Source: Deferrisoma camini S3R1
GTDB lineage: Bacteria > Desulfobacterota > Deferrisomatia > Deferrisomatales > Deferrisomataceae
DNA length: 64,000 nucleotides
NCBI RefSeq assembly: GCF_000526155.1
Contig: NZ_JAFN01000001.1
Span: 1,430,501 to 1,494,500, forward strand
Direction of reading: 5' to 3'
Below are positions 30,888 through 55,929 of this stretch, one piece after another; the stretch's first letter is position 1; each line of letters starts with the position of its first letter. A model generated the notes under the pieces. The model saw only the letters and a program-made list of their open reading frames with translations. It ran no database searches and was not told the origin of the DNA. Made by a program: the position numbers and the translations under genes.

Positions 30888-31360
30888 CGGCTCAACTCCT
30901 CGGCCGCCGCCTGCACGGCCTCGATGATCTGGGCGTACCCGGTGCACCGGCACAGATTCCCGGCCAGGGCGGTGCGGATCTCCTCCTCGCTGGGCAGCGG
31001 CACCCGGTCCAGGAGCGCCTTGGCCGACAGCACCATGCCGGGGGTGCAGAACCCGCACTGCACGGCCCCCTTCTCCACGAACGCGCGCTGGATCGGGTGG
31101 AGTTCCCCTCCCGGCCCGGCCAGCCCCTCCACGGTGGTCACCTCGGCGCCGTCGGCCTCCACGGCCGGGTACAGGCAGGCGTTCACCGCCCGGCCGTTCA
31201 CGAGGACCGTGCAGGCCCCGCACTCGCCCGCCCCGCACCCCTCCTTGGCCCCGGTGAGCTCCAACTCCTCCCGGAGCACCCGCAGGAGGTTCCAATGGGG
31301 CGCCACCGCCACGATGGCGTCCTCCCCGTTGACCTTGAACCGAATCGTGATGCGTTCCAT
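30884..31360 (-). CDS. Molybdenum hydroxylase small (2Fe-2S) subunit
   Basis: A 158-residue protein with two 2Fe-2S domains. The plant-type N-terminal cluster is in EGCGAGECGACTVLVNG and the C-terminal one in QCGFCTPGMVLSA ... NLCRCTGYAQI. It passes electrons from the molybdenum site to the FAD subunit. Its stop overlaps the large-subunit ATG. A 292 bp gap holding element A separates it from the FAD subunit gene. Confidence 0.93.
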   Translation of the reverse strand: MERITIRFKVNGEDAIVAVAPHWNLLRVLREELELTGAKEGCGAGECGACTVLVNGRAVNACLYPAVEADGAEVTTVEGLAGPGGELHPIQRAFVEKGAVQCGFCTPGMVLSAKALLDRVPLPSEEEIRTALAGNLCRCTGYAQIIEAVQAAAEELSR

Positions 31361-34154: not shown

Positions 34155-35912
34155 CTAGTCTCTGGTTTCTGCCTCTCCGGAGCGCAGCCTCTCCGTCTCG
34201 GCCTCGTCCACGGTCCAGGTGGCCGGGTCGATGGCCACGCCGTAGTCCTCCCGGGCCTTCTCCAGGGAGACCACGCCGTTTCGCACGTCCCGGAGCACCT
34301 TGGCCGGGTCCCGCTCCCTGGGGTCGCCCCAGCCCCCGCCGCCCCCGGCCTGCTGGAAGTACACGGTGCCGGCCGGCACGTTCTCCACCAGGTCCTTGCT
34401 GGTGCAGGTGTACCACCGGCCGTCCGGGTACCGGAGCTTGATCACGTTCAGGGTGCCGTCCTTGCCCCCCACCGCGCCCCTGGCGGGCTCCACGTCGCCG
34501 TCGCCGAAGGTCACCACCTTCACGTTCTCGCCGCCCATGACGAACTCGGTCTCCACCCCCAGGCCGCCCCGCCACCGGCCGGCCCCTGCCGAGTCGCACC
34601 AGTACTCGTGGCGGACGAGGCGGTGTGGGGTCTGTTGCTCGAACATCTCGTAGTCCTGGTCGAGCACCCCGCCCGAGGCGTCGATCATGCCGATGTGGTC
34701 GTACCCGTCGCACCCGTAGATGCCGCCGGACCCTCCTTTCATGCCCATGAAGAAGATGTCCACGAACGGCTCGCCGCCCTTGCGGGGATCGCTGCCGGTG
34801 GACAAGCTGCACAGCAGCTCGTTCCACTCGGCCGTGACCCGCTCGGGGATCACCGGGCCCAGGGCCCGCATGATGGCGTCGGCGTTGTTGGGGCACAGGT
34901 GGTTCCCGTAGGTGGTGGCCGCGGGGTAGGCCGCGTTCAGGATCGTGCCGCCCGGGATCGTGATCTGGATCGGCCGGACCATGCCCTCGTTGTGGGGCAT
35001 GTTGGGGTTCACCATCTGCAGGAACGTCAGGATCGTGGCCGAGGCGCTCGAGGTGAACGTGCCGTTCACGAACCCGGGGGTCTGGGGGTCGGTTCCGGTG
35101 TAGTCGAAGTGGATCTCCCCGTCCTTGACCGTGATCGTGACCCGGATCGTGTACTCGGACCCGGGGTTCTTCCCGTCGTAGTAGGCCGTGGCCTCGCCCC
35201 GGTACACGCCGTCGGGGATGGTGCGGATCTCCTGGCGCATCATCTGCTCGGTGGCGTCGAACAGGTACTCCTTGTGGGCCTCGAACACCTCGCGGCCGTA
35301 CCGCTCCAGGATCTTCAAAACCCCCCGCTCGCCCACCACGCACGAGCCGATCTCGGCCCGCATGTCCTCCTCGACGATGTCGAGCCGGATGTTGGCGAAA
35401 ATGAGGTCCCACACGTCCTTTCGCAGCTTGCCCCGCTCGATCACCTTGACCGGCGGGATCCGCAGGGCCTCCTGCCACACCTCGGTGGCCTGGGGGTTGT
35501 ACCCGCCCTGCACGGCGCCGCCGATGTCGGCCTGGTGGCCCTTGCACGCGGCCCACGCCACCAGCTCGCCCTCGAAGAAGATGGGCTTGTACACGGCCAC
35601 GTCGTTGTTCTGGTTGCCCATGCTGAACACGTCGTTGTGGAAGATGACGTCGCCCGGATGGATGTCGTCGCCGAAGTACTCGATGATGTACTTGCACACC
35701 GGCGCCAGGCTGAAGGCCAGGATGGGCAGGTTCTCGGTCTGCTCCAGCATGTTGCCCTTGGCGTCGTACAGCCCGGTGACGAAGTCCTTGGCCTCGCACA
35801 GGATCGGACTCCGGGTGGTCCGGGTCATCGCGATGCTCATCTCTTCCGTGATGCTCTTCAGGCGCCGCTGCAGGATCGACACCAGCACCTTGTCGATTCG
35901 GATCTCGCTCAT
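34155..35912 (-). CDS. hyuB: HyuB-type hydantoinase B subunit
   Basis: A 585-residue protein of the N-methylhydantoinase B family: AKDFVTGLYDAKGNMLEQTE, FHNDVFSMGNQNNDV, GGSGGIYGCDGYDHIG and QQAGGGGGWGDPRERDP. With HyuA it catalyses ATP-driven hydrolysis of a cyclic amide. Beside a Mo hydroxylase and B12 mutase the fitting substrate is 2-oxoindoleacetate, opened to (2-aminophenyl)succinate. This is inferred from the Aromatoleum pathway. The ATG overlaps the hyuA stop. The final codons and TAG are read from a CTAGTCT array. Confidence 0.9.
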   Translation of the reverse strand: MSEIRIDKVLVSILQRRLKSITEEMSIAMTRTTRSPILCEAKDFVTGLYDAKGNMLEQTENLPILAFSLAPVCKYIIEYFGDDIHPGDVIFHNDVFSMGNQNNDVAVYKPIFFEGELVAWAACKGHQADIGGAVQGGYNPQATEVWQEALRIPPVKVIERGKLRKDVWDLIFANIRLDIVEEDMRAEIGSCVVGERGVLKILERYGREVFEAHKEYLFDATEQMMRQEIRTIPDGVYRGEATAYYDGKNPGSEYTIRVTITVKDGEIHFDYTGTDPQTPGFVNGTFTSSASATILTFLQMVNPNMPHNEGMVRPIQITIPGGTILNAAYPAATTYGNHLCPNNADAIMRALGPVIPERVTAEWNELLCSLSTGSDPRKGGEPFVDIFFMGMKGGSGGIYGCDGYDHIGMIDASGGVLDQDYEMFEQQTPHRLVRHEYWCDSAGAGRWRGGLGVETEFVMGGENVKVVTFGDGDVEPARGAVGGKDGTLNVIKLRYPDGRWYTCTSKDLVENVPAGTVYFQQAGGGGGWGDPRERDPAKVLRDVRNGVVSLEKAREDYGVAIDPATWTVDEAETERLRSGEAETRD

Positions 35913-38014
35913 CCCAGAACCCTCCGGAGGATCTCGTCTTCCCGTTCCTTGAGGTACAGGGTGTAGGTGCCCAGGGGGTCCACCACCACCGAGAACTCGG
36001 GGGTCACGAAGGTGGTGGTGTTCACCTGCTCGATGATGGCCGGGCCGGCGATGCGGTTGCCGTGCCGCAGCTTCATGCCGTCGTACACCGGTACGTCGGC
36101 GAACCGCTTTTCCCGGGGCAGGTACGCCGACCGGCTGCGTTTGAACGCGGGGGACGGGTCCTCCCCGGCCAGGGGCTCGGGGGCCAGCCGGGGCTTGTCG
36201 GTGCGGCCCACGGTGGTGACGCGCACGTTGATCAGCTCCACCGGGGTGCCCTTCTCGGCCAGGTTGTACCCGTACAGGGCGTCGTGCTGGGGGTGGAACC
36301 GCGCCGCGAACGCCTCGGGGTCGGCGGCCAACGCCTCGTCCCACGGCACCTCCACGCTCACCTCGTGGTACTGGCGCACGTAGCGCAGGTCCAGCACCAC
36401 GTGGGTCTCCACCCGGTCCTCGGGGATGCCCTCCGCGGCGAGCTGCCGGACTCCCTCGTCGCGCATCTCCCGGCACAGGGCCCGGAACCGGTCGCGGTCG
36501 AACTCGTCGAGCCGGGCGGGGTAGCTGCGCACGAAGTCGTGCTTGAGGTCCGAGCGCAGCATGCCGGCCGCGCAGAAGATCGAGCTCTCCCGGGGCACCA
36601 GGATCACCGGGATCCCCAACTCCAGGGCGATCATGCAGGCGTGGTTGGGCCCGGCCCCGCCGGCCGTGACCAGGGGGAAGTCGCGCGGGTCGTACCCGTT
36701 GTTCACCGCGATCTCCCGTACGGCCGCGGCCATGCTCACGTTGATCACGTCGTACATGCCCGCGGCCGCCTCCTCCACCGTGTACCCCAGCTTCCGGGCC
36801 ACGTGCTCGTCGATGGCCCGCCGGGCCGCCTCCAGGTCCAGGGGCATCCGCCCCCCGGCGAAGAACGCCGGATCCAGATAGCCCAGCACCAGGTCCGCGT
36901 CGGTACAGGTGGGAAGCTCCCCCCCCCGGCCGTAACACGCAGGCCCCGGGTCGGCGCCGGCGCTCTGGGGCCCCATCCGCAGCAGCCCCCCCTCGTCGAT
37001 CCAGCCGATGGACCCGCCGCCCGCCCCGATGGTCACCACGTTGAGCATGGGCAGGCTGATCCGAAGCCGGTTGATCGAGCCCTCGGTGGTGGTCAGGGGC
37101 TTGCCGTCCTTGACCAGGGCCACGTCGAAGCTGGTGCCGCCCATGTCGCAGGTGATGCAGTCCTCGTACCCCTGGCCCCGGACGAAAGCGAGCCCGGCCA
37201 CCGGCCCGCCCGCCGGGCCGGAGAGCAGCGTGGTGGCGGGCTTGTCCATGGCCGCCTCGGGGGAGATCACCCCGCCGTTCGACGCCATGATCAGGAGGAT
37301 GCCCTGGTACCTAAGGCCCTCCAGCTTGCGGATCAGGCTTTGGAGATACCGGGTGAGCACCGGGCCCACGTAGGCGTTCAGCGCCGTGGTGGAGACCCGG
37401 TCGTAGAACCGGATCGCCGGGACCACCTCGGTGGACACCGACAGGAACGCCCCGGGCAGCTCGTCGCGCACGATCTCGGCCGCGCGCCGCTCGTGGGCCG
37501 GGTTGGCGAACGCGTTCATGAAGCAGATCGCCACCGCCTCGACCCCCTCGTTGCGGAACTCGGCCAGGGCGGCCCGCACCGACCCCTCGTCCAGGGGCTC
37601 GACCACGTCCCCCTTGTAGTCCACCCGCTCGGCCACCGGCAGCCGCAGGTACCGCTCCACCACGGGCCGGGCGTTGGGGAAGCGGTTGTTGTACTGCTCC
37701 TCCCGGATGCCCCGGCGCATCTCCAGGGCGTCCCGGAACCCCTTGGTGGTGAGGAGCCCGGTCTTGGCCCCGGTGTAGGTGAGGGTGGCGTTGGTGGTGA
37801 CCGTGGTGCCGTGGACGATGGTGCTCACCTGGCCCAGGAACTCCTCGGTCGTGAGCCCCCGGTCCCGGGCCATCTCCTCGATCCCCTGGATCGTGGCGAT
37901 GGACGGGTCCTTGGGCGTGGACAGCACCTTGTAGATGTGGCTGGTCCCGTCCTCCTCGGTGAGCAGGAAGTCGGTGAACGTCCCTCCCACGTCGATCCCG
38001 ATCTTGTACGTCAT
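35909..38014 (-). CDS. hyuA: HyuA-type hydantoinase A subunit (ATP-dependent)
   Basis: A 701-residue ASKHA-fold ATPase subunit. It has the phosphate-binding IGIDVGGTFTDFLLTEEDG at the N-terminus, CDMGGTSFDVALV in the middle and TAGGAGPNHACMIALELG. The family phosphorylates a lactam oxygen so that HyuB can hydrolyse the ring. ATG 38014 has a good ribosome site (AAGGAGC). It is the only HyuA in the window, so it may serve both HyuB copies. A 95 bp ACGATTY heptamer gap separates it from the mutase gene. Confidence 0.92.
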   Translation of the reverse strand: MTYKIGIDVGGTFTDFLLTEEDGTSHIYKVLSTPKDPSIATIQGIEEMARDRGLTTEEFLGQVSTIVHGTTVTTNATLTYTGAKTGLLTTKGFRDALEMRRGIREEQYNNRFPNARPVVERYLRLPVAERVDYKGDVVEPLDEGSVRAALAEFRNEGVEAVAICFMNAFANPAHERRAAEIVRDELPGAFLSVSTEVVPAIRFYDRVSTTALNAYVGPVLTRYLQSLIRKLEGLRYQGILLIMASNGGVISPEAAMDKPATTLLSGPAGGPVAGLAFVRGQGYEDCITCDMGGTSFDVALVKDGKPLTTTEGSINRLRISLPMLNVVTIGAGGGSIGWIDEGGLLRMGPQSAGADPGPACYGRGGELPTCTDADLVLGYLDPAFFAGGRMPLDLEAARRAIDEHVARKLGYTVEEAAAGMYDVINVSMAAAVREIAVNNGYDPRDFPLVTAGGAGPNHACMIALELGIPVILVPRESSIFCAAGMLRSDLKHDFVRSYPARLDEFDRDRFRALCREMRDEGVRQLAAEGIPEDRVETHVVLDLRYVRQYHEVSVEVPWDEALAADPEAFAARFHPQHDALYGYNLAEKGTPVELINVRVTTVGRTDKPRLAPEPLAGEDPSPAFKRSRSAYLPREKRFADVPVYDGMKLRHGNRIAGPAIIEQVNTTTFVTPEFSVVVDPLGTYTLYLKEREDEILRRVLG

Positions 38015-38109: not shown

Positions 38110-39738
38110 TCAAAAGATCCTCGGCTCCTGGAAGGTGCCGAACACCTCGCGGAACACGTCGGCCATCTCGCCCACGGTGCAGTAGGCCCGGCAGCACTCC
38201 ACCAGGGCGGGCATCACGTTCTCGCCCGACCGGGCCACCCGCTCCAGCTCCCGGAGGCTCTGGAGCACCGGATCGGCCGGCCGGGAGCGCTTGAGCTCCT
38301 TGAGCTCCCGGATCTTCTCCTCGGCCCAGGCCTCGTTGTACTCGTGGAGCTCGACCTCCTGCTCCTCCTCGGTGGCGTACTTGTTCACCCCCACCTTCAC
38401 GATCTCGCCGCGCTCCAGGGCGCGCTCGAACTCGTAGGCCTGGCGGGCCAGCTTGCGGTGCACGTAGCCGTTGCTCACGCACTCCACGATCCCGCCCTTG
38501 GACTCGATCTCCTCCATCTCCTCCCAGATCTTCTCCTCCATCTGCTTGGTGAGGGTCTCGACGAAGTACGATCCGGCCAGGGGGTCCACCGTGTCGCGCA
38601 GCCCCACCTCCTCCATCAGGATCTGGCAGGTCCGGAGGCTCAGCAGTGCGGCCCGGGGCGTGGGGATGGTGAACGCCTCGTCGAACGAGCACAGGGCCGT
38701 GGTCTGGGCCCCCGACAGGGCGGCGGCGAGGGCGTAGTAGGCGCCCCGGATGATGTTGTTCTCGGGCTCGGCCTTGGTGAGCCCCGACCCGCCGCCGGCG
38801 AACAGGCCCCGCAGCCACAGGTTCCGGGGGTTCTTGACCTTGTACTTCTCCTTCAGGTTCGTGGCCCACACCTTCCGCCCCGCCCGGAACTTTGCGACCT
38901 GCTCCCAGAGGTTGCCGAAGATGTTGAAGTTGAAGCTGAACCGGCCCACGAACTCGTCGGGCTCGTACCCCCGCCGCACCACCTCGTCGATGTAGGCGTT
39001 GGCGATCAGGAAGGCGTAGGCCATCTCCTGGGCCGGGGTGGCTCCCGACTCCCGGATGTGGTAGCCGCACACGCTCACCGGGTTGGTGCGGGGCATCGCC
39101 TTGATCGAGTACTCGATGGTGTCCCCGATCAGCCGGATCGCCGGCTCCAGGGGGTAGATCCAGGCGCCCCGGCCGATCACCTCCTTGAGGATGTCGTTCT
39201 GGGGGGTGGCCGAGATCTTGGTGCGGTCGAACCCCAGCTTCTCGCCCACCGCCTGGTACATGGCCAGCATCACCGAGGCCACGGCGTTGATCGTGAGCCC
39301 CGCGCCCACCCGGTGCAGGTCGATGCCGTCGAAGGCGATCTCGAAGTCCCGCAGGCTGTCCACGGCCATGCCCACCCGGCCCACCTCGCCCTCGGCCATG
39401 GGGTGATCCGAGTCGAGGCCCATCTGGGTGGGCAGATCGAAGGCCACGTTCAGGCCCGTCTGGCCGTGGGAGATCATCAGCTTGAACCGCTCGTTGGTCT
39501 CCCTGGGCGTGCCGAACCCCGTGTACTGGCGGGTCGTCCACTCGCGGGTCCGGTACCCCTGGGGGAAGATGTTCCGGGTGAACGGGAACTGCCCGGGCTC
39601 CCCCAGGTCCTTCTGGTAGTCGAACCCGATCGCCTCCAGGTCCTCGGGCCCGTACTTGGGCTTCACGTGGATCCCGGAGGGCAGGATCACGTCCAGGATC
39701 ACGTCCTTTTCGTCTCGGATGTACTTCGCAACGTCCAT
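38110..39738 (-). CDS. Adenosylcobalamin-dependent acyl-CoA mutase, large (catalytic) subunit
   Basis: A 542-residue TIM-barrel mutase without the C-terminal B12 domain, which is encoded separately at 40061. It has GQTGLNVAFDLPTQMGLDSD and SFNFNIFGNLWEQ. At the two positions that distinguish mutase types it keeps Tyr (RQYTGFGT) and Arg (KEVIGRGAW), as in methylmalonyl-CoA mutase, so the substrate should carry a free carboxylate. In this cluster the fitting reaction is (2-aminophenyl)succinyl-CoA to (2-aminobenzyl)malonyl-CoA. Ordinary methylmalonyl-CoA mutation remains possible. Confidence 0.9.
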   Translation of the reverse strand: MDVAKYIRDEKDVILDVILPSGIHVKPKYGPEDLEAIGFDYQKDLGEPGQFPFTRNIFPQGYRTREWTTRQYTGFGTPRETNERFKLMISHGQTGLNVAFDLPTQMGLDSDHPMAEGEVGRVGMAVDSLRDFEIAFDGIDLHRVGAGLTINAVASVMLAMYQAVGEKLGFDRTKISATPQNDILKEVIGRGAWIYPLEPAIRLIGDTIEYSIKAMPRTNPVSVCGYHIRESGATPAQEMAYAFLIANAYIDEVVRRGYEPDEFVGRFSFNFNIFGNLWEQVAKFRAGRKVWATNLKEKYKVKNPRNLWLRGLFAGGGSGLTKAEPENNIIRGAYYALAAALSGAQTTALCSFDEAFTIPTPRAALLSLRTCQILMEEVGLRDTVDPLAGSYFVETLTKQMEEKIWEEMEEIESKGGIVECVSNGYVHRKLARQAYEFERALERGEIVKVGVNKYATEEEQEVELHEYNEAWAEEKIRELKELKRSRPADPVLQSLRELERVARSGENVMPALVECCRAYCTVGEMADVFREVFGTFQEPRIF

Positions 39739-40060: not shown

Positions 40061-40456
40061 CTACGCACCGCACCGCTCCTGGATGAACCGCACGGTCTCG
40101 TCCAGGGGGGTGCCCCCGGGGAAGATGCCCTCCACTCCCAGCGCCCGAAGGGCTTCGAAGTCCTTCTTGGGGATCACGCCTCCCACGATCACCACCTTGT
40201 CCTGAGCGCCCTTCTCCTTGAGCAGAGCGGTCAGCTTGCGGCAGATCGGCAGGTGGCCGCCGGTCATGACGGACAGCCCGATCACGTCCACGTCCTCCTG
40301 GATGGCGGTCTGCACGATCGCCTCCACGCTTTGGTGGAGCCCCGTGTAGATCACCTCCATCCCGGCCTCCTGGAGCGCGTGGGCCACCACCTTGGCCCCC
40401 CGGTCGTGGCCGTCCAGCCCGGGCTTCGCAACCAGCACCTTGATCTTTCGCGCCAT
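40061..40456 (-). CDS. Cobalamin-binding mutase small subunit
   Basis: A 131-residue stand-alone B12-binding domain. The signature DGHDRGAK (DxHxxG, His ligand to cobalt) is at about 15-22, followed by GLSVMTGGHLP and VVIVGGVIPKKD. It completes the mutase with the 38110 gene. The two genes are separated by element B rather than adjacent, which is unusual. Good Gly-rich base-off cobalamin motifs leave little doubt on family. Confidence 0.94.
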   Translation of the reverse strand: MARKIKVLVAKPGLDGHDRGAKVVAHALQEAGMEVIYTGLHQSVEAIVQTAIQEDVDVIGLSVMTGGHLPICRKLTALLKEKGAQDKVVIVGGVIPKKDFEALRALGVEGIFPGGTPLDETVRFIQERCGA

Positions 40457-40481: not shown

Positions 40482-40600
40482 TTGGTCTTTCGTCGTTCGT
40501 CGCAGGTCGCTGGTCGTTCGTCGTTCTCCGTCCAGACCGTGGGTGTGTCTTCGCGTCGCGACGTCCGCGCGTTCGCACGTCCGAACGTCCTAACCGTACC
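40482..40600. repeat. Heptamer (TTCGTCG) and octamer (AACGTCCT) arrays
   Basis: Seven-bp units TTGGTCT, TTCGTCG, TTCGTCG, CAGGTCG, CTGGTCG and TTCGTCG span 40482-40523. Eight-bp units of the CACGTCCG/AACGTCCT type span about 40560-40600 and supply the TAG stop of the ferredoxin gene. Confidence 0.82.
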
Positions 40601-40868
40601 GGTACCTCACCCCGTATCCCCCCCGGGGGTACCGCCAGGTGAGAGCCCCTTCGCGGCACGCCACGAGGCAGGTGCCGCACTCCAGGCACCCCGCGAACTC
40701 CACCGTCATCCGGTCCGACTCCTCGTTCCACTCGTACAGGGCGGCCGGGCAGACCCGCACGCAGTAGCGCTCGCGGCACCGGGCCCGGCACACCTCGGCG
40801 TCGATCTGAATGTGGCTCTGCTCGTCGTGCCGGAACGCGTTCTTCGTGAGCTTTTCGTCGACGGTCAT
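40590..40868 (-). CDS. fixX: FixX-like ferredoxin
   Basis: A 92-residue ferredoxin. The C-terminal CLECGTCLVACREGAL holds one 4Fe-4S motif with a CP in VCPAALYEW; further Cys in CRARCRERYC are typical of FixX. It transfers electrons to or from the FixC flavoprotein in the EtfAB-FixCX complex. The stop is read from an octamer array. Confidence 0.9.
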   Translation of the reverse strand: MTVDEKLTKNAFRHDEQSHIQIDAEVCRARCRERYCVRVCPAALYEWNEESDRMTVEFAGCLECGTCLVACREGALTWRYPRGGYGVRYRYG

Positions 40869-40876
40869 GGGGGGCT

Positions 40877-41005
40877 CGTGAATCGTGAATCGTCAATCGT
40901 GAATGGTTGGGTCGTCGGTCTCCGGTCTTCGGTCTCCGGTCGTCGGTGGCACCAAACGTCCTCCCGTCCTAACGTCCTAACGTCCCAACGTCCCAACGTC
41001 CCAGC
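40877..41005. repeat. Compound array: CGTGAAT heptamers, TCTTCGG heptamers, AACGTCCY octamers
   Basis: About 130 bp of three tandem families in sequence: CGTGAAT x4, TCKYCGG x5-6, then AACGTCCT/AACGTCCC x6. The last family codes the final residues (GRWDVGTLGR) and TAG stop of fixC. Confidence 0.9.
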
Positions 41006-42282
41006 CCCCGTGCCTTCCACCAGAACCGGGCGTCCCGGCGGTTGAGGGCGGTTCGCCGGAGGAATCCCCATACCAGGGAACCGAGGGGCTCGGGCGCGTC
41101 CTTTCCCAGCCGGACCAGCCGGCCCACCAGCTCGGCCACCTCCCTGGGGTACCGGTCGAACAGGTCGGGGTTGGACAGGAGCGCCGGCATGTCCCGGTAG
41201 GCCTCCAGGTACCTCCACACGAAGCTCTGGCGCAGCCGCCGCAGGTACCCCGACAGCCCCACCGCCGAGTAGTCGTCCGCCTCCCGGGCCTCCAGCACGG
41301 CCTCGGCCGCCATGCGGCCGCTCGCCACGGCAAACTCCATGCCCCGCACCGTGTACCCCATGTTCAGGGCCAGCCCCGCGGCGTCGCCCGCCAGCAGGAT
41401 GCCGTCGTCCAGGATCCGCCCCACCCCCCCCAGGCCGGTCTCGGGGATCAGGTGGGCCGAGTACTCCAGGAGCTCCCCACCTTGGAGGAGCCTTCGGACC
41501 CGCGGGTGGCGCTTGAACGCCTCGAGGATCTCGGGGGCCTTTTCCCGACCGCCGTCCTCCATGAGATCGTGCACCCCCATCACCACGCCCACCGACACCG
41601 AGTCGCGGTTCGTGTACACGAACCCCCCGCCCATCCGGCCGCCCGTGAACGAGCCCACGAACAGCTCCGCCGCCCCTTCGCCCGGCTCCAGGTTGAACCG
41701 GTCCTCGATGGTGCCCGGCGGAAGCCCGATCACCTCCTTCACGCCCACGGCCACGGCCTTGGGCTCGGGCACCTGCCGGAGGCCGGCGGCCTGGCCCACG
41801 AACGAGAGCACGCCGTCGCACCCGATCACCACGTGGGCCGGGATCTCCTCGCCGTCCACCCGGACCCCGGCCACCCGTCCGTCCTCGCGCAGCAGCTCGG
41901 CCACGGGCTTCTCCGGGATCACGAACGCCCCCATGCCCATGACCCGCTCGCCAAGCCAGGCGTCGAGCCGGCCCCGGAGCACGGTGTAGCTCTGGGGCAC
42001 CTCACCGCCGAGGGCCGGGTCGATGTACTCCATCCGCACGGCCCGGTCGCCGTCCACCAGGGTCCAGGCCTCGCGGGTCACGGCCCGCTCCCACGGGGCG
42101 TCCTGCCACCGCTCCACCACGTCGCGGATGGGCCCCACGTACATCCGGCCGCCGGTCACGTTCTTGGTGCCGGGCCCGTCGCCCCGCTCCAGCACCACCA
42201 CCTGGAGCCCGGCCTCGGCCAGCCGTTCGGCCGCGGCCAGCCCGGCCAAGCCCGCGCCCACGATCACGGCATCCATCTTCAT
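40969..42282 (-). CDS. fixC: FixC-like electron-transfer flavoprotein:quinone oxidoreductase
   Basis: A 437-residue FAD oxidoreductase. The dinucleotide motif is DAVIVGAGLAGLAAAERLAE and a second FAD motif is GILLAGDAAGLALNMGYTVR. FixC accepts electrons from EtfAB and passes them to FixX/quinone; FixABCX complexes can bifurcate electrons between NADH, quinone and ferredoxin. ATG 42282 is used because GGAGG lies 7 bp upstream. The C-terminus runs into an octamer array and may be lengthened by it. Confidence 0.9.
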   Translation of the reverse strand: MKMDAVIVGAGLAGLAAAERLAEAGLQVVVLERGDGPGTKNVTGGRMYVGPIRDVVERWQDAPWERAVTREAWTLVDGDRAVRMEYIDPALGGEVPQSYTVLRGRLDAWLGERVMGMGAFVIPEKPVAELLREDGRVAGVRVDGEEIPAHVVIGCDGVLSFVGQAAGLRQVPEPKAVAVGVKEVIGLPPGTIEDRFNLEPGEGAAELFVGSFTGGRMGGGFVYTNRDSVSVGVVMGVHDLMEDGGREKAPEILEAFKRHPRVRRLLQGGELLEYSAHLIPETGLGGVGRILDDGILLAGDAAGLALNMGYTVRGMEFAVASGRMAAEAVLEAREADDYSAVGLSGYLRRLRQSFVWRYLEAYRDMPALLSNPDLFDRYPREVAELVGRLVRLGKDAPEPLGSLVWGFLRRTALNRRDARFWWKARGLGRWDVGTLGR

Positions 42283-42358: not shown

Positions 42359-43312
42359 TCACGTCCGGGCCTCCCGGATCGCCCGGGTCAGGGCGGGCAG
42401 CACTTGGAGCGCGTCGCCCACGATGCCGTAGTCCGCGTAGCGGAAGATCGGGGCGTTGGGGTCGCTGTTGATGGCCACCACCACCTTGGAGGTGTCCATG
42501 CCCATGGTGTGGTGCACCGCGCCGGAGATGCCGGCAGCCACGTACAGGGCCGGCGACACGGTCTTGCCCGATTTGCCCACCTGGATCGCGTGGTCGGCCC
42601 AGCCGGCGTCCACCACGGCCCGGCTCACTCCCACGGCCCCACCCAGGGCGTCGGCGAGCTCCTCCAGGAGCCTCAGGTTCTCCGGCCCCTTCAGGCCCCG
42701 GCCTCCGCTCACCACCACCTGGGCCTCGGTCAGGGGCACCCGTTCCGACTCCCGGCCGGTCCGCTCCAGCACCTCGGCCCTCTGAGCCGCCGGCTCCACG
42801 GACACGGTCTCCACCCGGGTCGTCAGGTCGGCCGGCGTTTCCGGATCGAAGCTGTTGGGCCGAAACGCCGCCAGTACCCGGCGGCCGGTCAGGCCGAGCC
42901 ACTGGTAGGCCTTGCCCCCGCACACCGGCCGCAGGAGCCGCAGCCCTCCGTCTCCGGCCTCCAGCGCCAGGGCGTTGGTGACCGCGTTCCATCCGAGCCG
43001 GGCCGCCACCCGGGGCAGCACGTCACGGGTGCGCGGCCCCTCAGGCCACAGGACCAGGTCCGGGGCCTGGTCGCCCAGCACCCGGGCCAGGGCGTCCACC
43101 CAGGGATCTGCGGCGTAGCCGGCAGGCCCCTCCACCTTGAGCAGCCGGTGTACCGTTCCCTGTAGGGCCTCGGCCGGCCCTGCCTCGTCGCCCACGGCCA
43201 CGGCCGTGACCTCTGCACCTTCGCCCCCCACCCGCCGGGCCTGGGCCGCGAGCTCGCGGACCGCCCGCCGCAGCCCCTCGCCTTCTGCCTCGCACACCAC
43301 CCAGATCTGCAT
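42359..43312 (-). CDS. fixB: Electron transfer flavoprotein alpha subunit (FixB)
   Basis: A 317-residue ETF alpha subunit. The C-terminal FAD domain has GRGLKGPENLRLLEEL, QVGKSGKTVSPALY and AINSDPNAPIFRYADYGIVG. It forms a heterodimer with EtfB (17 bp upstream). It may take electrons from the acyl-CoA dehydrogenase next door or form a FixABCX complex. The N-terminal half lacks an extra ferredoxin domain. Octamer-type GGCTGGAA repeats lie before fixC. Confidence 0.92.
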   Translation of the reverse strand: MQIWVVCEAEGEGLRRAVRELAAQARRVGGEGAEVTAVAVGDEAGPAEALQGTVHRLLKVEGPAGYAADPWVDALARVLGDQAPDLVLWPEGPRTRDVLPRVAARLGWNAVTNALALEAGDGGLRLLRPVCGGKAYQWLGLTGRRVLAAFRPNSFDPETPADLTTRVETVSVEPAAQRAEVLERTGRESERVPLTEAQVVVSGGRGLKGPENLRLLEELADALGGAVGVSRAVVDAGWADHAIQVGKSGKTVSPALYVAAGISGAVHHTMGMDTSKVVVAINSDPNAPIFRYADYGIVGDALQVLPALTRAIREART

Positions 43313-43329: not shown

Positions 43330-44079
43330 CTAAATCACCCTCGCCTCGTCCCTCAGGAGCCGCACCAACTCGGCCGCGGCCTCCTCGGGCTCGCCCTGGA
43401 TCATGCGGACCTCGGGCCGGCTGCGCGGCCCCTGGAAGCCCTGGGACGGCAAAGGTTCCACCGCCTCCACCCCCAGATCGGCCAGGGACACGGCCGGGAT
43501 CTGGGCCCGCATCGCCTTCATCAGGCCCATCACCTGGGGCACCCGGGGCTCGTACCACCCCTTCTCCGCGGTGAGCAGGGCGGGCAGGGGCACCCGGAGG
43601 GTCTCCCGGCCGTCGGCCTCCCGCGTCACCACCAGGCTCCCGTCCTCCGCCTGGCATCCCACCACCCCGGTCACGCAGGGCACGCCCAGCACCTCGGCCA
43701 CCATCGGCCCGACCAGGCCGGCCTCGGTGTCGGTGCCCTGCTTTCCGGCCAGGACCAGGTCGAACCCCTCCTTGGCCACGGCCGCCGCAAGGGCCCGGGC
43801 CACGGTAAGGGGATCCGCCCCTTCGAGGGCCGGGTCCTCCAGCCGCACGGCCGCGTCCGCGCCCATGGCCAGGGCCCGGCGCAGGGCCTCGAGCCCCGTG
43901 CCCACCGCCACCACCCGCCCGCCGGCGGCCTGCTTGAGCTGCAGGGCGGCCTCGACCGCGATCTCGTCGAAGAAGTTCAGGACCCGCTTGGGCTCCACCT
44001 CGAGCCCCGAGCCGTCGCCGGTCACCTGGACCCGCGCCTCCAGATCGGGGACCTCTTTCACGAGCACGGCGATGTTCAT
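43330..44079 (-). CDS. fixA: Electron transfer flavoprotein beta subunit (FixA)
   Basis: A 249-residue ETF beta subunit. It has NFFDEIAVEAALQLK and LVLAGKQGTDTEAGLVGPMV, the AMP/FAD-binding segment of bifurcating FixA proteins. First gene of the fix block, preceded by repeat elements C and B. With FixB, FixC and FixX it forms a four-subunit electron-transfer system, most likely serving the acyl-CoA dehydrogenation or molybdenum-enzyme electrons. Confidence 0.93.
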   Translation of the reverse strand: MNIAVLVKEVPDLEARVQVTGDGSGLEVEPKRVLNFFDEIAVEAALQLKQAAGGRVVAVGTGLEALRRALAMGADAAVRLEDPALEGADPLTVARALAAAVAKEGFDLVLAGKQGTDTEAGLVGPMVAEVLGVPCVTGVVGCQAEDGSLVVTREADGRETLRVPLPALLTAEKGWYEPRVPQVMGLMKAMRAQIPAVSLADLGVEAVEPLPSQGFQGPRSRPEVRMIQGEPEEAAAELVRLLRDEARVI

Positions 44080-44571: not shown

Positions 44572-45720
44572 TCACCGTCCCTTCACGATCTCCCGGCCGA
44601 TGAAGTTCTTAAGCACCTCGTGGGTGCCGCCGCCGTAGAGCAGGAACCGGGCGTCCCGGAAGTAGCGCTGGGGCCCGTACTCCGTGGCGAACCCGTTGCC
44701 ACCGTAGATGCGGGTCACCTCGTCCACCACCTTCAGGCAGGTCTCGGTGGCGAACATCTTGGCCATGGCGGCCTCCTTGCGGGGGTTCAGGCCCTCGCCG
44801 ATCATCCAGGCCGCGTAGTAGACCAGCAGCCGGGCCGCCTCCATCTCGGTGGCCATCTCCGCGAACTTGGCCCGGATCAGCTGGTAGTCGCCGATCGGCC
44901 GGCCGAACGCCTCGCGCTTGCGGGCGTACTCCAAGCCGTCCGCAAACGCGGTGCGCGCGATCCCCAGGGCCATGGCCCCGGTCATGCACCGCACCTCGTT
45001 CAGGATCTCGCCCAGGTACGCCACGCCCTTGCCCTCCTCCTCGCCCAGGAGGTTCTCGTCGGGCACGAACACGTCCTCGAACACCAGCTCCCCGGTCACC
45101 GGGCCCCGGGCCCCCAGCTTGTGGAGCACCTGGCCCGACCGGAACCCCGGGGTTCCCTTCTCCACCAGGAAGAAGTTCAGGCCCTTCATCCCCTTGGCCG
45201 GGTCGGTGGTGGCCAGCACCGTGGCGAAGTCGGCCGTGGGCCCGTTGGTGATCCAGTTCTTGGTTCCGTTGAGCACCCAGCCGCCGTCCACCTTTTTCGC
45301 GGTGGTGCGGGTGGCGGCCAGGTCCGACCCGGACTGGTCCTCGGTGAAGCAGATGGTGGCGATCTTCTCGCCCCGGAGCGCGGGCAGCAGGCACCGCTCG
45401 CGGATCGCCTCGGACCCGAACCGGTACAGGAAGTGGGTGCCCATCAGCATGTTCATGATCACGGCCTGGGCGAACCCCACCGACCCCCGGGTGATCTCCT
45501 CGTAGAAGATCATGCAGGTCACCGGGTCGGCGTTCATGCCCCCCAGCTCCTCGGGGTAGCGCAGGCCCAGGTACCCGAGCGAGGTGAACTCCCGCCACAG
45601 GTCCTCCGGGATCCGGTCCTCCTGGTCGATCTCCTCCACCCGCGGGAGGATCAGCCGATCCACGGTGTCGGCCACGGCCTGTCGGAAAAACTGCTGTTCC
45701 TCGGTGAGTCGGAAATCCAT
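44572..45720 (-). CDS. Acyl-CoA dehydrogenase lacking the canonical catalytic Glu (benzylmalonyl-CoA dehydrogenase-like)
   Basis: A 382-residue FAD flavoprotein. It has ICFTEDQSGSDLAATRTT, WITNGP and RIYGGNGFATEYGPQRYFRD. The usual catalytic Glu motif (YEGT) reads LLYGGGTHEVLKN, so Gly replaces Glu. The other known position (usual LNxERL) reads LNEVRC. Loss of the base fits an oxidative decarboxylase, as known for benzylmalonyl-CoA dehydrogenase of the Aromatoleum indoleacetate pathway, where loss of CO2 replaces proton removal. The substrate is inferred. ATG 45720 has a GAGG ribosome site 7 bp upstream. Confidence 0.87.
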   Translation of the reverse strand: MDFRLTEEQQFFRQAVADTVDRLILPRVEEIDQEDRIPEDLWREFTSLGYLGLRYPEELGGMNADPVTCMIFYEEITRGSVGFAQAVIMNMLMGTHFLYRFGSEAIRERCLLPALRGEKIATICFTEDQSGSDLAATRTTAKKVDGGWVLNGTKNWITNGPTADFATVLATTDPAKGMKGLNFFLVEKGTPGFRSGQVLHKLGARGPVTGELVFEDVFVPDENLLGEEEGKGVAYLGEILNEVRCMTGAMALGIARTAFADGLEYARKREAFGRPIGDYQLIRAKFAEMATEMEAARLLVYYAAWMIGEGLNPRKEAAMAKMFATETCLKVVDEVTRIYGGNGFATEYGPQRYFRDARFLLYGGGTHEVLKNFIGREIVKGR

Positions 45721-46048: not shown

Positions 46049-47242
46049 CTACACCACCCCCTCGTCCGTGAGCCGGGCGAGCGCGTCCTCGGACAACCCG
46101 AGGGCCTCGCCGTAGACCTTGGCGTTGTGCTCGCCCAGGCGGGGCGGGAACGACAGCTCCCCCCCCCTCTCCCTCAGGAACTCGGTGGGCACCGGCGGCG
46201 GCGCCAGGCAGACCTCGAACCCGGTCTGGGGGTCCCGGGTGCGCAGGAGCTTCGGCTTCACCGCGGGGTCCTCGCACACCTCCGGCACGGTCTGGACCCT
46301 CGACCCCGGGATCCGGGCCTGCCGCAGCAGGCCCAGGAGATCTTCGGTGCCGAGGGCTCTCGTGACCTCGGCGATCCGCTCGTTCAGCCGGCCCACGTCC
46401 GCGATCCGGCCGGCGTTGGTCTCGTACGCAGGGTCGGCCAGCCCCTCGAACCCCGGCAGGGCCACCAGCCGCTGCCACTGCAGGTCGTTGCCCACCGCCA
46501 GGTACACGTACCCGTCCCGGGTGGGGTACACGCTGACCGGGGCGAAGAACTCGTGGGTGTTGCCCCGGCGGGTCATCACCTTCCCAAAGGTCTTGGCCAT
46601 GGTGATCGGCTGGGTCAGCCAGCTCACGGTGGAGTCGATCATGGCCACGTCGATCCGGGCCCCTTCGCCGGTCACGGCCCGGCGGTACAGGGCCTTCATG
46701 ATCTGGCCGTAGGCGTGCTCGCTCGTGCCCATGTCGGGCAGGGGGATCCCCACCACCTCGGGGGGGCCGTCCGGCTCGCCGGTCAGGTCCATCAGCCCCC
46801 CCCGGGCCTGAAGGATGGGGTCGTAGGCCGCCTCGTTGGAGTCGGGCCCGAACCCGGTGATCCCCACCCAGATCAGATCGGGCCGGATCTTCCGGAGGGT
46901 GTCGTAGTCGATGCCCAGGGGCTCGTAGTTCTTGGGCAGCTGGTTCGTGGCGAACACGTCCACCGGCAGCTCCGCGATCAGGTCGTGGAGCAGCTTCTGC
47001 CCCTTGGGGTCCTTCAGGTTCAGAGTGATCGCCTCCTTGCCCGCGTTGATGGCGAAGAAGTAGCTCGACATCAGGGGCTCCTCCGGGCGGAACGGGTCCC
47101 CCACCCGCCGGTTCGGGTCGCCGCGGCCCGGGGGCTCCACCCGGATCACCCGAAGCCCGTCCATGGCGAGCCGGTAGGTGAGGTAGGGCAGCACGGTGGC
47201 CTGCTCCAGGCTCAGAACGGTCAGGTCTTGCAAGGGGTTCAT
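46049..47242 (-). CDS. Family III CoA-transferase (CaiB/Frc type)
   Basis: A 397-residue CoA-transferase. It has VIRVEPPGRGDPNRR, ITLNLKDPKGQKLL and the catalytic Asp in IPLPDMGTSEHAYGQIM. These enzymes transfer CoA between acids, such as succinyl-CoA and benzylsuccinate or phenylsuccinate. In this cluster it would load CoA on the dicarboxylic acid from HyuAB, as the phenylsuccinyl-CoA transferase of the Aromatoleum pathway does; this is inference. ATG 47242 follows GGGAGGAG. First gene on the minus side of a divergent control region. Confidence 0.88.
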   Translation of the reverse strand: MNPLQDLTVLSLEQATVLPYLTYRLAMDGLRVIRVEPPGRGDPNRRVGDPFRPEEPLMSSYFFAINAGKEAITLNLKDPKGQKLLHDLIAELPVDVFATNQLPKNYEPLGIDYDTLRKIRPDLIWVGITGFGPDSNEAAYDPILQARGGLMDLTGEPDGPPEVVGIPLPDMGTSEHAYGQIMKALYRRAVTGEGARIDVAMIDSTVSWLTQPITMAKTFGKVMTRRGNTHEFFAPVSVYPTRDGYVYLAVGNDLQWQRLVALPGFEGLADPAYETNAGRIADVGRLNERIAEVTRALGTEDLLGLLRQARIPGSRVQTVPEVCEDPAVKPKLLRTRDPQTGFEVCLAPPPVPTEFLRERGGELSFPPRLGEHNAKVYGEALGLSEDALARLTDEGVV

Positions 47243-47461: not shown

Positions 47462-47527
47462 GCGCCGCACCGGGTTTCAACTCGGTGTTCTGTTTTTCTG
47501 CTAGATCGTTTTATTTTGGAGCGTACG

Positions 47528-48520
47528 ATGCTTCGCCTGCCCCATTTCGCCGTTCACCGCCCCGGTTCCGTGGCCGAGGCGCTCCAGATCCTGGCGACCG
47601 CTCCCCACGCCCGGCCGCTGGCCGGGGGCACCGATCTGCTGGTGGCCATGAAGCACGGCCACCACAAGGAGGCCGACCTCGTGAGCCTGGCCGGGCTCGG
47701 CCTCTCCGGCATCGAGCGATCGGACTCCGCGATCACGGTGGGCGCGGGAACCTCCCTGTGGGATCTGATGCGGTGGGCCTGGCCCGGCGCATTGGGCGTG
47801 GTGGCCGAAGCGGTCCGGGCCGTGGCCGCCCCGCCCCTCCAGAGCCGCGCCACGGTGGGCGGGAACGTCTGCCTGGACACCCGGTGCTGGTTCTTCAACC
47901 AGTCCGCGTTCTGGCGAAGCGGCCGGCCGGCCTGCCTCAAGGCCGGGGGCGACCGGTGCCACGTGGTGCCCGGGGGGAGCGACTGCCACGCCGTGAGCCA
48001 GGCCGATCTGCCCCCGGTCCTGATCGCCTGCGGGGCCCAGGCGGAGATCGCCGGGCCCGACGGAAGCCGGGAGGTGCCGGTGGAGGGGCTGTTCTCGGGC
48101 GACGGAAGGCGGCCCCACACCCTGAGCTCCGCAGAGCTCCTGCTGCGGCTCCGCGTTCCCCTGCCCCCCCCCGGGGCGGGCGCGGCCTACGAGAAGCTGA
48201 GGATGCGCCGCGCCTTGGACTTTGCAGCCGCCTCGGCCGCGGTGTACCTGGAGCGCCGGGACGGAGGCTGCGCCCGGGCCCGGGTGGTGCTGGGGGGCCT
48301 GGGCACCAGCCCCCTACGGGTGCCCGAGGCCGAGGCCGCGCTGGAGGGCACGGAGCTGGATCCCCGCGCCCTGGCCGAGGCTGCGGAGGCGGCCGTGGCC
48401 GCGGCCCGGCCCGTGAAGAACACCGACCTGACCCCGGCCTACCGCCGGAAGATGGCAGGGGTGCTGGTTCGGCGGGCCGCCCTGCGGGCGTGGACCCGGG
48501 CGGCCGGGGAGGAGTCCTGA
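47528..48520 (+). CDS. 4-Hydroxybenzoyl-CoA reductase-like FAD/4Fe-4S (beta) subunit
   Basis: A 330-residue FAD subunit of a molybdenum hydroxylase. It has the FAD motif RPLAGGTDLLVAM and SRATVGGNVCLDTRCWFFNQ. The insertion with CLDTRC, PACLKAGGDRC supplies four Cys for an extra 4Fe-4S cluster, the hallmark of 4-hydroxybenzoyl-CoA reductase beta subunits (HcrB). This enzyme reductively removes a phenolic hydroxyl from benzoyl-CoA derivatives. ATG 47528 has GGAG 7 bp upstream. The stop overlaps the next start (TGATG). Confidence 0.88.
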   Translation: MLRLPHFAVHRPGSVAEALQILATAPHARPLAGGTDLLVAMKHGHHKEADLVSLAGLGLSGIERSDSAITVGAGTSLWDLMRWAWPGALGVVAEAVRAVAAPPLQSRATVGGNVCLDTRCWFFNQSAFWRSGRPACLKAGGDRCHVVPGGSDCHAVSQADLPPVLIACGAQAEIAGPDGSREVPVEGLFSGDGRRPHTLSSAELLLRLRVPLPPPGAGAAYEKLRMRRALDFAAASAAVYLERRDGGCARARVVLGGLGTSPLRVPEAEAALEGTELDPRALAEAAEAAVAAARPVKNTDLTPAYRRKMAGVLVRRAALRAWTRAAGEES

Positions 48521-49050
48521 TGAGCGAAGCGCGGAAGAGTGCGCCAAAAAAGATGGTGGTCGAGCTCGAGGTCAACGGAACCCGTCACGAGCTCCTGGTG
48601 GAGCCCCGCCGGACCCTGCTGGAGGTCCTGCGGGAGGAGCTGGGGCTCACGGGCGCCAAGGAGGGGTGCGGCCTGGGCGCCTGCGGCACCTGCACCGTGC
48701 TCATGGACGGCCGGCCCGTGCGCGCGTGCCTCACCCTGGCGGTGGAGGCCCAGGGGGCGAGCATCCTCACCGTGGAGGGGCTGGCCGACACCGTGGCCGA
48801 CCGGGAGCCCGGGGCCCTGCACCCGATCCAGGAGGCGTTCGTGGACGCCCACGGGGTCCAGTGCGGGTTCTGCACCCCCGGCATGATCCTCGCGGCCAAG
48901 GCGCTGCTGGACGAGGAGCCCGACCCGGACGAGGCCCGGATCCGCGAGGCGCTGGGCGGCCAGGTGTGCCGGTGCACCGGCTACACCAAGATCGTGGAGG
49001 CCGTGAAGCTGGCCGCCCACCGGCTCTCTGGCGAGGAGGTGGAGGCGTGA
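48520..49050 (+). CDS. 4-Hydroxybenzoyl-CoA reductase-like 2Fe-2S (gamma) subunit
   Basis: A 176-residue subunit. The two 2Fe-2S motifs are EGCGLGACGTCTVLMDG and QCGFCTPGMILAA ... QVCRCTGYTKI. It links the molybdenum and FAD subunits. The start ATG shares one base with the preceding stop, and the following GTG overlaps its TGA, so all three subunit genes are translationally coupled, unlike the repeat-split paralogue at 28-32 kb. Confidence 0.92.
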   Translation: MSEARKSAPKKMVVELEVNGTRHELLVEPRRTLLEVLREELGLTGAKEGCGLGACGTCTVLMDGRPVRACLTLAVEAQGASILTVEGLADTVADREPGALHPIQEAFVDAHGVQCGFCTPGMILAAKALLDEEPDPDEARIREALGGQVCRCTGYTKIVEAVKLAAHRLSGEEVEA

Positions 49051-51326
49051 GTCGCTACATCGGACAGAGCCTTCCGAGGAGGGACGCGCGGCTCAAGGCC
49101 ACCGGCGAGGCCCGGTTCACCGCAGACCTCTCCCTGCCGTTCATGCTCCACGCGGCCGTGCTGCGAAGTCCCTACCCCCATGCGCGCATCGTCCGGCTCG
49201 ACACCAGCCGGGCCGAGCGGCTGCCCGGGGTCAAGGCGGTGCTCACCGCCCGGGACACCTCCGGGGTCAAGTGGGGCGTGTTCCGCTACACCCGGGACCA
49301 GGAGTTCCTGGCCCGTGAGAAGGTGCGGTACGTGGGCGAGGAGGTGGCGGCCGTGGCCGCCGAGTCCGAGGACATCGCCCGGGAGGCCCTGGAGCTCATC
49401 GAGGTGGAGTACGAGATCCTGCCGGCCGTGTTCGACCCGCTGTCGGCCGTTGCGGACGACGCCCCCCGGATCCACGACCACGCCGAGCGCAACATCAACA
49501 TCCACGTGCCGATCCACGTGGGCGACGTGGACCGGGCCTTCGACGAGTGCGACTACGTCCACACCGAGCGCACGGTCTCGGAGGAAGAGAGCTACTTCAT
49601 GACCGAGCCCTACGCGGTGCTGGCCCACTGCGACCGCCAGGGCACAGTGGAGGTGTGGATGCCCAACGCGAGCCCCCACACCAAGGCCAAGGGGCTCGCC
49701 AACGCGCTGGGGCTGCCGGTGTCCAAGGTGCACGTGCGCCACGTGTTCGTGGGTGGCGCCTTCGGGGGCCGCAGCGACATGTTCCCCGGGGAGTACATCG
49801 CGGCGCGGCTCTCCCAGATGACCCAGCGGCCGGTGAAGCTCGTGTACACCCGCGAGGAGAACTCCATCGCGGTGCGCCAGGGCCACTCCATGGTGGTGGA
49901 GAGCACCTTTGGGTTCAAGCGGGACGGCACCCTTCACGCCGTGGACGTCACCGCCTACATGGACGGCGGGGCGTACTCGTCCACCGGCCCCATCGCCACG
50001 AGCGTGCCGTTCCTGTGCTTCGAGCAGACCTACCGGGTGCCCAACGTGCGGTACAACGGGTACCGGGTGTACACCAACAAGCCGATCCGGGGCATGATCC
50101 GGACCCACGGCCGGGCCTGGGCCTGCAACGTGGACATGCAGCTCGACCTGGCGGCCGCCGCCCTGGGGCTGGACCCGGTGGAGATCCGCCGGCGCAACGC
50201 GGTGCGCACCGGCGACACCACCCCGACCCAGAGCAAGATCTTCAAGATGGACAGCCTGGCCACCATCGAGGCCGTGGCCGAGGCCAGCCGGTTCCGGGAG
50301 AAGTGGGGGAAGCTGCCCAAGTGGCGCGGCATCGGGATCGGCTGCGTGAGCGTGATGAGCGGGTTCCCCATGGGCATCCGGGGCGGATCCGCGGCCATGG
50401 TGAAGTTCGACGAGGACGCGGGGGTGACCGTGATCTCCGGGGTGGTGGACAACGGCCAGGGCAACGAGAACGTGGTGCTGCAGATCGCGGCCGAGGCCCT
50501 GGGCGTGGCCCCCGACGCGATCCAGCTGGTGGCCTCGGACACCGAGGTCACCCCCATCGACCAGGGCGCCTACTCCCAGGCCACCACGTTGTGCAGCGGC
50601 AACGCCGTGCGCCTGGCCTGCGAGGACGCCCGGCGCCAGATCTTCGAGATCGCCTCGGACATGCTGGAGGCGGCCGCGGAGGACCTGGAGCTGGAGGACG
50701 GCAAGGTGTACGTGCGGGGCTCCCCGTCCCGGGCCGTGCCGCTGCGCAACGTGATCCGCATGGGGCTGCTCAAAGGCAAGAACGTCATCGGCCACGGCAG
50801 CTTCGGCCCCAACGTGGACCAGACCCGCGAGTGGATCAAGAACCCCACGGGGCAGCTCGCGGCCGCGTTCAGCTACGGCAGCGCCGTGGTGGAGGTGGAG
50901 GTGGACCCGGAGACCGGGTTCGTCCGGGTGCTCGACGCCTGGGTGGCCCACGACTGCGGGAAGGCCATCAACCCCAAGGAGGTGGAGGGCCAAATGGAGG
51001 GCGGCCTCGCCATGGGGGGCCACGGCGGCATCCTGCTGGAGGCCTGCAAGTGGCACGAGGGAGCCAACCTGAACCCCGACTTCCTGGGGTACAAGGTGCC
51101 GCTCGCGCCCGACATGCCGCCCATCCACCCCTTCATCGTCGAGTCCGAGGATCCGTTCGGGCCGTTCGGGGCCAAGGAGGGCGGGTTGTCCATCTCCATG
51201 TGCACGGCCCAGGCCTACTCCAACGCCATTGCCAACGCCATCGGCACCCACATCCGGGAGTTCCCCCACACCCCCGACCGGGTGCTCGAGGCGATCGAGA
51301 AAAGGGCCGTGACGGGTGATCCGTGA
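49047..51326 (+). CDS. 4-Hydroxybenzoyl-CoA reductase-like molybdopterin (alpha) subunit
   Basis: A 759-residue molybdenum subunit. It has HVFVGGAFGGRSDMFPGEY near 235 and VVDNGQGNENVVLQIAAEAL near 465. At the usual catalytic Glu site (GAKxxGE) it reads PFGAKEGGLSISM: in an ungapped comparison Leu stands at the Glu position and a Glu lies three residues earlier. It may still be active through this shifted Glu. The GTG start overlaps the 2Fe-2S stop. The TGA stop is read from a GTGACGG tandem repeat. With CoxDE downstream it forms a complete operon. Confidence 0.85.
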   Translation: MSRYIGQSLPRRDARLKATGEARFTADLSLPFMLHAAVLRSPYPHARIVRLDTSRAERLPGVKAVLTARDTSGVKWGVFRYTRDQEFLAREKVRYVGEEVAAVAAESEDIAREALELIEVEYEILPAVFDPLSAVADDAPRIHDHAERNINIHVPIHVGDVDRAFDECDYVHTERTVSEEESYFMTEPYAVLAHCDRQGTVEVWMPNASPHTKAKGLANALGLPVSKVHVRHVFVGGAFGGRSDMFPGEYIAARLSQMTQRPVKLVYTREENSIAVRQGHSMVVESTFGFKRDGTLHAVDVTAYMDGGAYSSTGPIATSVPFLCFEQTYRVPNVRYNGYRVYTNKPIRGMIRTHGRAWACNVDMQLDLAAAALGLDPVEIRRRNAVRTGDTTPTQSKIFKMDSLATIEAVAEASRFREKWGKLPKWRGIGIGCVSVMSGFPMGIRGGSAAMVKFDEDAGVTVISGVVDNGQGNENVVLQIAAEALGVAPDAIQLVASDTEVTPIDQGAYSQATTLCSGNAVRLACEDARRQIFEIASDMLEAAAEDLELEDGKVYVRGSPSRAVPLRNVIRMGLLKGKNVIGHGSFGPNVDQTREWIKNPTGQLAAAFSYGSAVVEVEVDPETGFVRVLDAWVAHDCGKAINPKEVEGQMEGGLAMGGHGGILLEACKWHEGANLNPDFLGYKVPLAPDMPPIHPFIVESEDPFGPFGAKEGGLSISMCTAQAYSNAIANAIGTHIREFPHTPDRVLEAIEKRAVTGDP

Positions 51327-55840: not shown

Positions 55841-55847
55841 CACCTGC

Positions 55848-55886
55848 CACACCGGTGCCGGGGGACGTGCCCCCGGCACCGGTGTG
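55848..55886 (+). terminator. Strong hairpin terminator after trpB
   Basis: A 17 bp perfect stem (CACACCGGTGCCGGGGG with CCCCCGGCACCGGTGTG) closes a 5-base loop and is followed by TTTCGTT. It lies 7 bp after the trpB stop and would end the transcript of the molybdenum-enzyme/TrpB operon. Confidence 0.85.
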
Positions 55887-55929
55887 TTTCGTTCCAGCTT
55901 CCCAGCCTTCTAGCCTTTCAGGAGCCCCC

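Follow-up and report, generated by a model that had tools for sequence, protein, structure and literature searches.

An acyl-CoA dehydrogenase with a triple-glycine motif and its putative electron-transfer partners in an iaa-type gene cluster of Deferrisoma camini

Which reaction is catalyzed by an acyl-CoA dehydrogenase without its catalytic glutamate, and which proteins take up its electrons? This question is raised by a gene in a 64,000-nucleotide stretch of the Deferrisoma camini S3R1 genome, referred to here as the window. A precedent is IaaF of Aromatoleum aromaticum, an enzyme of the bacterial degradation of the plant hormone indoleacetate (PMC8360864). IaaF converts benzylmalonyl-CoA to cinnamoyl-CoA and CO2 and is inactive on phenylpropionyl-CoA; benzylmalonyl-CoA is an analogue, and (2-aminobenzyl)malonyl-CoA is the expected natural substrate (PMC8360864). 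IaaF orthologues carry the triplet GGG, and the authors proposed that CO2 loss takes the place of proton loss and that GGG leaves room for the carboxylate (PMC8360864). In vitro, Aromatoleum IaaF used O2 only as an acceptor and rejected the ETF of its own organism, and its re-oxidant under anoxia is left open in that paper (PMC8360864). A sequence-only reading of the window had explained the missing base by the departure of CO2, as for benzylmalonyl-CoA dehydrogenase; this is the mechanism published for IaaF, with its GGG orthologues. Since base loss is already explained there, the motif as such brings nothing new. The apparent novelty lies in dedicated electron-carrier genes that travel with the dehydrogenase.

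The gene is located at 44572..45720 on the minus strand, the only strand on which this frame translates. It encodes an IaaF-type acyl-CoA dehydrogenase of 382 amino acids, in a frame that remains open as far as an ATG at 45726. The three Pfam domains typical of this family are all present and span the whole protein. By alignment and family comparison, Gly363-Gly364-Gly365 (44626..44634, minus strand) replaces Tyr-Glu-Gly; GGGT aligns on YEGT of PDB 4l1f, with Gly363 at the Tyr site and Gly364 at the catalytic Glu site. The YEGT motif had been read as YGGGTHEV. The string LLYGGGTHEV is indeed present and the catalytic Glu is Gly364, but the printed Tyr precedes the motif by one residue, and the Tyr of the motif is Gly363. 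The alternative Glu position, read as LNEVRC, needs a similar correction: the string occurs, but the site itself is Val243, just ahead of the invariant Arg244, and is distinct from Glu242, which precedes it by one residue (Glu242-Val243-Arg244, 44989..44997, minus strand). We take the alternative-base position to be that of Glu254 in IVD and Thr255 in MCAD. The ranges of the structure matches fit a C-terminal offset of 12 between the window dehydrogenase and MCAD. Arg337 aligns with MCAD Gln349, which is presumably a FAD-contact residue; a role of Arg337 as the carboxylate binder is not claimed.

In the source genome, 12 PF00441 rows correspond to 11 genes, two rows being one gene, and the window dehydrogenase is the only one of these 11 acyl-CoA dehydrogenases with GGG. 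Two in-genome controls, L181 (FAG) and L183 (WTG), have lost the YEG Glu and carry a Glu directly before the helix Arg.

The AlphaFold2 model of the window dehydrogenase (pLDDT 92.9) has the usual acyl-CoA dehydrogenase fold. It matched human SCAD (Z 51.0, rmsd 1.8, 377 aligned), human IVD (1ivh; Z 49.1, rmsd 2.1, 379 aligned), the MCAD T255E/E376G mutant (Z 48.3, rmsd 2.1, 379 aligned), and 5ahs (Z 45.9, rmsd 2.4, 375 aligned). The glutaryl-CoA dehydrogenase model NF045552 gave 254 bits, below its cut-off of 470, and the 3-sulfinopropionyl-CoA desulfinase model NF042439 gave 228 bits, far under the curated cut-off of 600.

The dehydrogenase belongs to a run of minus-strand genes. A class III CoA-transferase (IaaL-like; 46049..47242; PF02515, 281.6 bits) comes before it, and EtfB (43330..44079), EtfA (42359..43312), a FixC-like ETF:quinone oxidoreductase flavoprotein (40969..42282; best PDB match 7koe_C, 225 bits), and a FixX-like ferredoxin (40590..40868; PF05187 Fer4_ETF_QO, 42 bits) come after it. 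The run continues with the B12-binding small subunit (40061..40456; TIGR00640 above cut-off) and the large subunit (38110..39738; PF01642, 588.7 bits; TIGR00641 above cut-off) of a mutase. HyuA-type (35909..38014) and HyuB-type (34155..35912) subunits follow, with the caprolactamase alpha and beta models, respectively, as the nearest NCBIfam models, each below its cut-off. The run closes with a PaaK-like CoA ligase (IaaB-like; 32542..33825) and the FAD subunit (31653..32525) and large subunit (28545..31295; domains from about residue 135 of the frame) of a Mo-hydroxylase. A second Mo-hydroxylase is divergently encoded on the plus strand (47516..51323); its FAD subunit (47516-48520) was identified by Pfam and NCBIfam, and for its Fe-S and large subunits, up to 51323, the call was made from the frames only. 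We assume that HyuAB-type genes are part of the iaa set. The published iaa gene set, with CoA-transferase, mutase, and CoA ligase, is the same as that of the window (PMC8360864). The earlier view that the missing base supports the pathway assignment is borne out by the neighboring genes, which supply an anaerobic indoleacetate pathway.

Several other features were noted in the window. A VOC-family protein is encoded at 51661-52092 (plus strand), and its homologues occur near the CoA-transferase in related loci. It is perhaps a malonyl-CoA-type epimerase; the characterized IaaF accepts one enantiomer only as its substrate (PMC8360864). At 54470-59472 (plus strand), a TrpB-like enzyme (TIGR01415 above cut-off) is followed by a fusion of an indolepyruvate:ferredoxin oxidoreductase alpha part (TIGR03336, 637 bits; cut-off 651) with a GltD-like part. 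With these genes, indoleacetyl-CoA might be made directly from indole or tryptophan. A 163-nt intergenic repeat is present at 39864-40026 and 44354-44516 as inverted copies that are 98% alike and partly self-complementary. Genome-wide, all 40 scored copies, the first 40 of 208 candidates, matched it at 94% or more.

Judged from its sequence and surroundings, the window protein is very probably an IaaF-type oxidative decarboxylase of indoleacetate degradation, with electrons passing via the adjacent EtfAB and FixC/FixX to quinone. The motif, the gene set, and the shape of the tree described below suggest its orthology to IaaF. The CoA ligase, the Mo-hydroxylase, and the lactamase-like HyuAB would convert indoleacetate to (2-aminophenyl)succinyl-CoA; the order of these early breakdown steps is background that goes beyond what the IaaF paper states. 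The CoA-transferase and the B12 mutase would then convert (2-aminophenyl)succinyl-CoA to (2-aminobenzyl)malonyl-CoA. On the flavoenzyme, CO2 would be lost from C2 and hydride transferred from C3 to FAD, to yield 2-aminocinnamoyl-CoA. A base would not be required, and the three glycines would give the carboxylate room, as in the published proposal. The electrons would be taken up by EtfAB, the product of the adjacent genes, and handed on through FixC/FixX to quinone. Observed here are the residues, the gene content, the linkage, and the co-occurrence. The reaction and mechanism come from the literature on the Aromatoleum enzyme, and we infer the substrate, the electron route, and the sequence in which the early steps take place.

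With the window dehydrogenase as the query and a threshold of 1e-100, 69 of the 395 phylum genomes gave matches, at 74 places in all. GGG was present in 64/64 places inspected among these 74, the window included, and also in both copies of locus L005 and in L006, which is the same locus as L122. With this count and the Glu kept by most other dehydrogenases (below), chance is not the explanation of the motif. For the residue comparison, 66 distinct GGG rows (one protein being represented twice, at different lengths) were set against 92 other dehydrogenases, which are mostly close butyryl-type enzymes, so the whole superfamily is not sampled. Gly364, Arg337, and Met246 were found in 66/66 GGG rows; the other dehydrogenases have Glu (90/92), Gln (90/92), and Gly (84/92) at these positions, respectively. 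Arg54 occurred in 65/66 GGG rows. Position 242 carries an acid in all 66 (62 Glu and 4 Asp) and Gly in 82/92 of the others; the acidic residue is hence specific to the family among these rows, and it could be a candidate base. In the tree, 65 GGG rows formed one group (support 100/99), with few, long-branched outgroup rows and a sample that contained no characterized IaaF sequence.

In some genomes the GGG dehydrogenase is present twice, the copies lying in tandem or apart, so they may have divided functions between them. In L123, L124, and L005, GGG dehydrogenases with identities to the window enzyme of about 53-56% and 73-74% stand in tandem within one cluster, possibly for two substrates or two electron partners. 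In L136 (4540-14854), a run of CoA-transferase, GGG dehydrogenase, EtfBA, and FixCX extends into two further dehydrogenases and an HdrA-like iron-sulfur flavoprotein; the mutase of this genome is on a separate contig.

The motif has limits as a marker. An enzyme on a plasmid of Massilia putida (L214, 14971-16116) is 41.7% identical to the window enzyme and has GGG, with an Asp directly before the helix Arg, at the alternative-base position. Arg54, Met246, and Arg337 are missing from it, and its gene adjoins canonical ETF genes and is not part of an iaa cluster. No mutase of the window type was found on this plasmid. A search of plasmids with the mutase query gave nothing above 60% identity. 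GGG as a sufficient marker is ruled out by this enzyme, which combines GGG with Asp on a plasmid without the mutase, so GGG alone cannot name the reaction. GGG alone is thus a weak annotation rule, and the iaa enzymes are better told apart from the Massilia enzyme by the residues at positions 54, 242, 246, and 337.

Co-occurrence with the mutase was assessed in the same 395 genomes, with the large subunit of the window as the query; relatives at 61% identity or more were present in 76 genomes. Both genes were present in 63 genomes, the dehydrogenase only in 6, the mutase only in 13, and neither in 313 (Fisher p 1.4e-52, with the genomes taken as independent and uncorrected for relatedness). 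The 19 exceptions include incomplete genomes; G045 (98% complete) and G200 (97%) are not among these. G200, which belongs to the source genus, has the mutase and no dehydrogenase at the threshold.

Which proteins accept the electrons was approached through gene linkage. In 48/65 rows (L006 and L122 being the same locus), both EtfB and EtfA are encoded no more than 2.5 kb from the dehydrogenase. A single ETF gene is nearby in 3/65, and none in 14/65, some of which are at contig ends. FixC and FixX are found within 9 kb in 28/65 rows. Two arrangements were distinguished. In the downstream arrangement, which includes the window, the dehydrogenase is followed by EtfB and EtfA, often with FixC/FixX; in the window, FixC and FixX come after EtfB and EtfA, as in the FixABCX layout. 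In the upstream arrangement, the order is CoA-transferase-EtfB-EtfA-dehydrogenase-mutase; this class is below 50% identity and comprises 13 rows, none with FixCX.

EtfB proteins were typed by score ratios with thresholds of 1.2 and 1.05 that we chose, and the type is not certain proof of bifurcation. EtfB is present in 10/13 rows of the upstream class, and all 10 are of the bifurcating type, scoring 216-249 bits with bifurcating references and 75-99 bits with canonical ones; one of them was also checked against PDB. Among the 38 other EtfB beside GGG enzymes (the duplicate L006 excluded), none is of the bifurcating type; 20 lean toward the canonical type, and the other 18 are equivocal. The window EtfB scored 115 bits against canonical references and 92 bits against bifurcating ones, and the window EtfA is nearest to CarE (175 bits).

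Linkage of the dehydrogenase to ETF persists even at loci that lack the other pathway genes. At 13 split loci (L120-L122, L125, L126, L128-L135), the dehydrogenase comes after yqeY-mutS2-dnaG-rpoD (identified by Pfam in L122). EtfB and EtfA are directly downstream in 12 of the 13, and EtfB alone is present at a contig end in L134; FixC and FixX occur in 11. Within 9 kb, no CoA-transferase, mutase, or HyuA was found on the dehydrogenase strand at these 13 loci. The mutase is nevertheless present in all 13 genomes, which rules out that the rpoD-side copies serve a mutase-free pathway. Of 11 mutase regions in these genomes, 8 contain the full set (CoA-transferase, both mutase subunits, HyuA, HyuB, ligase, and Mo-hydroxylase), 2 are on short contigs, and 1 has the mutase only (L208); the remaining 2 genomes have a GGG paralogue inside an iaa cluster (L156, L157). 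The 13 loci, from two families, may derive from one ancestral event. Because the dehydrogenase keeps its ETF neighbors at a distance from the other pathway genes, we regard these loci as the best sequence evidence for ETF as the partner. The gene order, that of the rpoD-side loci included, names testable electron partners for IaaF. Aromatoleum IaaF rejects its own ETF, so ETF as the acceptor may not hold throughout.

We tentatively consider, as a possibility short of an even chance, that one base-less dehydrogenase has two electron outlets: a canonical-like ETF with FixC/FixX to quinone in the window lineage, and a bifurcating-type ETF within the iaa cluster, operating by confurcation, in other families of the phylum. 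If so, an irreversible oxidative decarboxylation would feed an electron-confurcation step, and the question of what re-oxidizes IaaF would be answered. This view departs from a published note that the iaa operons of strict anaerobes carry non-bifurcating ETF. No report of the FixCX-linked ETF, the bifurcating-type ETF, the split loci, or the acid at position 242 was found in a literature search that left out the 2012/2016 indoleacetate and 2019 ETF papers.

Other readings of the window enzyme were weighed against that of an IaaF-type decarboxylase. The GGG enzyme may decarboxylate a different 2-carboxyacyl-CoA, in another lactam or arylsuccinate pathway with the same mutase and CoA-transferase. 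This would suit the caprolactamase models nearest to HyuAB, even though the scores are below cut-off, as well as the flanking second Mo-hydroxylase and VOC protein, with homologues by the CoA-transferase in related loci, and the presence of the gene in genomes down to 1.5 Mb, beside housekeeping genes. We consider it unlikely, given that the gene set of the window is the published iaa set (PMC8360864) and that the nearby TrpB-like enzyme and fused indolepyruvate oxidoreductase fit indole chemistry.

The conserved acid at position 242 (66/66 GGG rows vs Gly in 82/92 others) invites the view that the protein is an ordinary or variant dehydrogenase with Glu242 as the base, in which a proton, not CO2, leaves first. 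However, the known alternative base occupies the next position, as seen in L181, L183, and the Massilia enzyme, and a shift of one residue along a helix rotates the side chain by about 100 degrees. The characterized IaaF is, moreover, inactive on phenylpropionyl-CoA (PMC8360864), and a base at 242 thus appears improbable. An enzyme that eliminates without a redox reaction, like sulfinopropionyl-CoA desulfinase, in which the Glu is likewise missing, would account for the 228 bits against the NCBIfam desulfinase model and the match to 5ahs. That score is far under the curated cut-off, the desulfinase motif is AGG instead of GGG (PMC8360864), and redox partner genes adjoin the dehydrogenase; we therefore give this reading almost no weight. 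As the desulfinase also has no base (PMC8360864) and the Massilia enzyme has GGG with Asp, a missing base alone is no proof of decarboxylation.

The window enzyme, as a probable IaaF-type decarboxylase, can be compared with known systems. It shares with Aromatoleum IaaF the family, GGG for YEG, and the genes for CoA-transferase, mutase, and CoA ligase (PMC8360864). Distinct from the Aromatoleum enzyme, which in vitro used O2 only and rejected the ETF of its organism, it has ETF, FixC, and FixX genes directly after it. Isovaleryl- and long-chain acyl-CoA dehydrogenases have also lost the YEG Glu, but carry a Glu directly before the helix Arg, where the window enzyme has Val243. Glutaryl-CoA dehydrogenase, like the proposed window enzyme, couples oxidation with CO2 loss, but it keeps the YEG Glu, Gly364 in the window enzyme, and loses its gamma-carboxylate in a second step (PMC8360864). 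3-Sulfinopropionyl-CoA desulfinase has the same fold and no Glu, with elimination in place of deprotonation; it differs in its AGG motif (PMC8360864), its non-redox reaction, and the low score of its model on the window protein. The FixABCX/EtfABCX complex (7koe) resembles the window in the order EtfB, EtfA, FixC, FixX and in FixC, which is nearest to 7koe_C, whereas the window EtfB scores higher against non-bifurcating ETFs.
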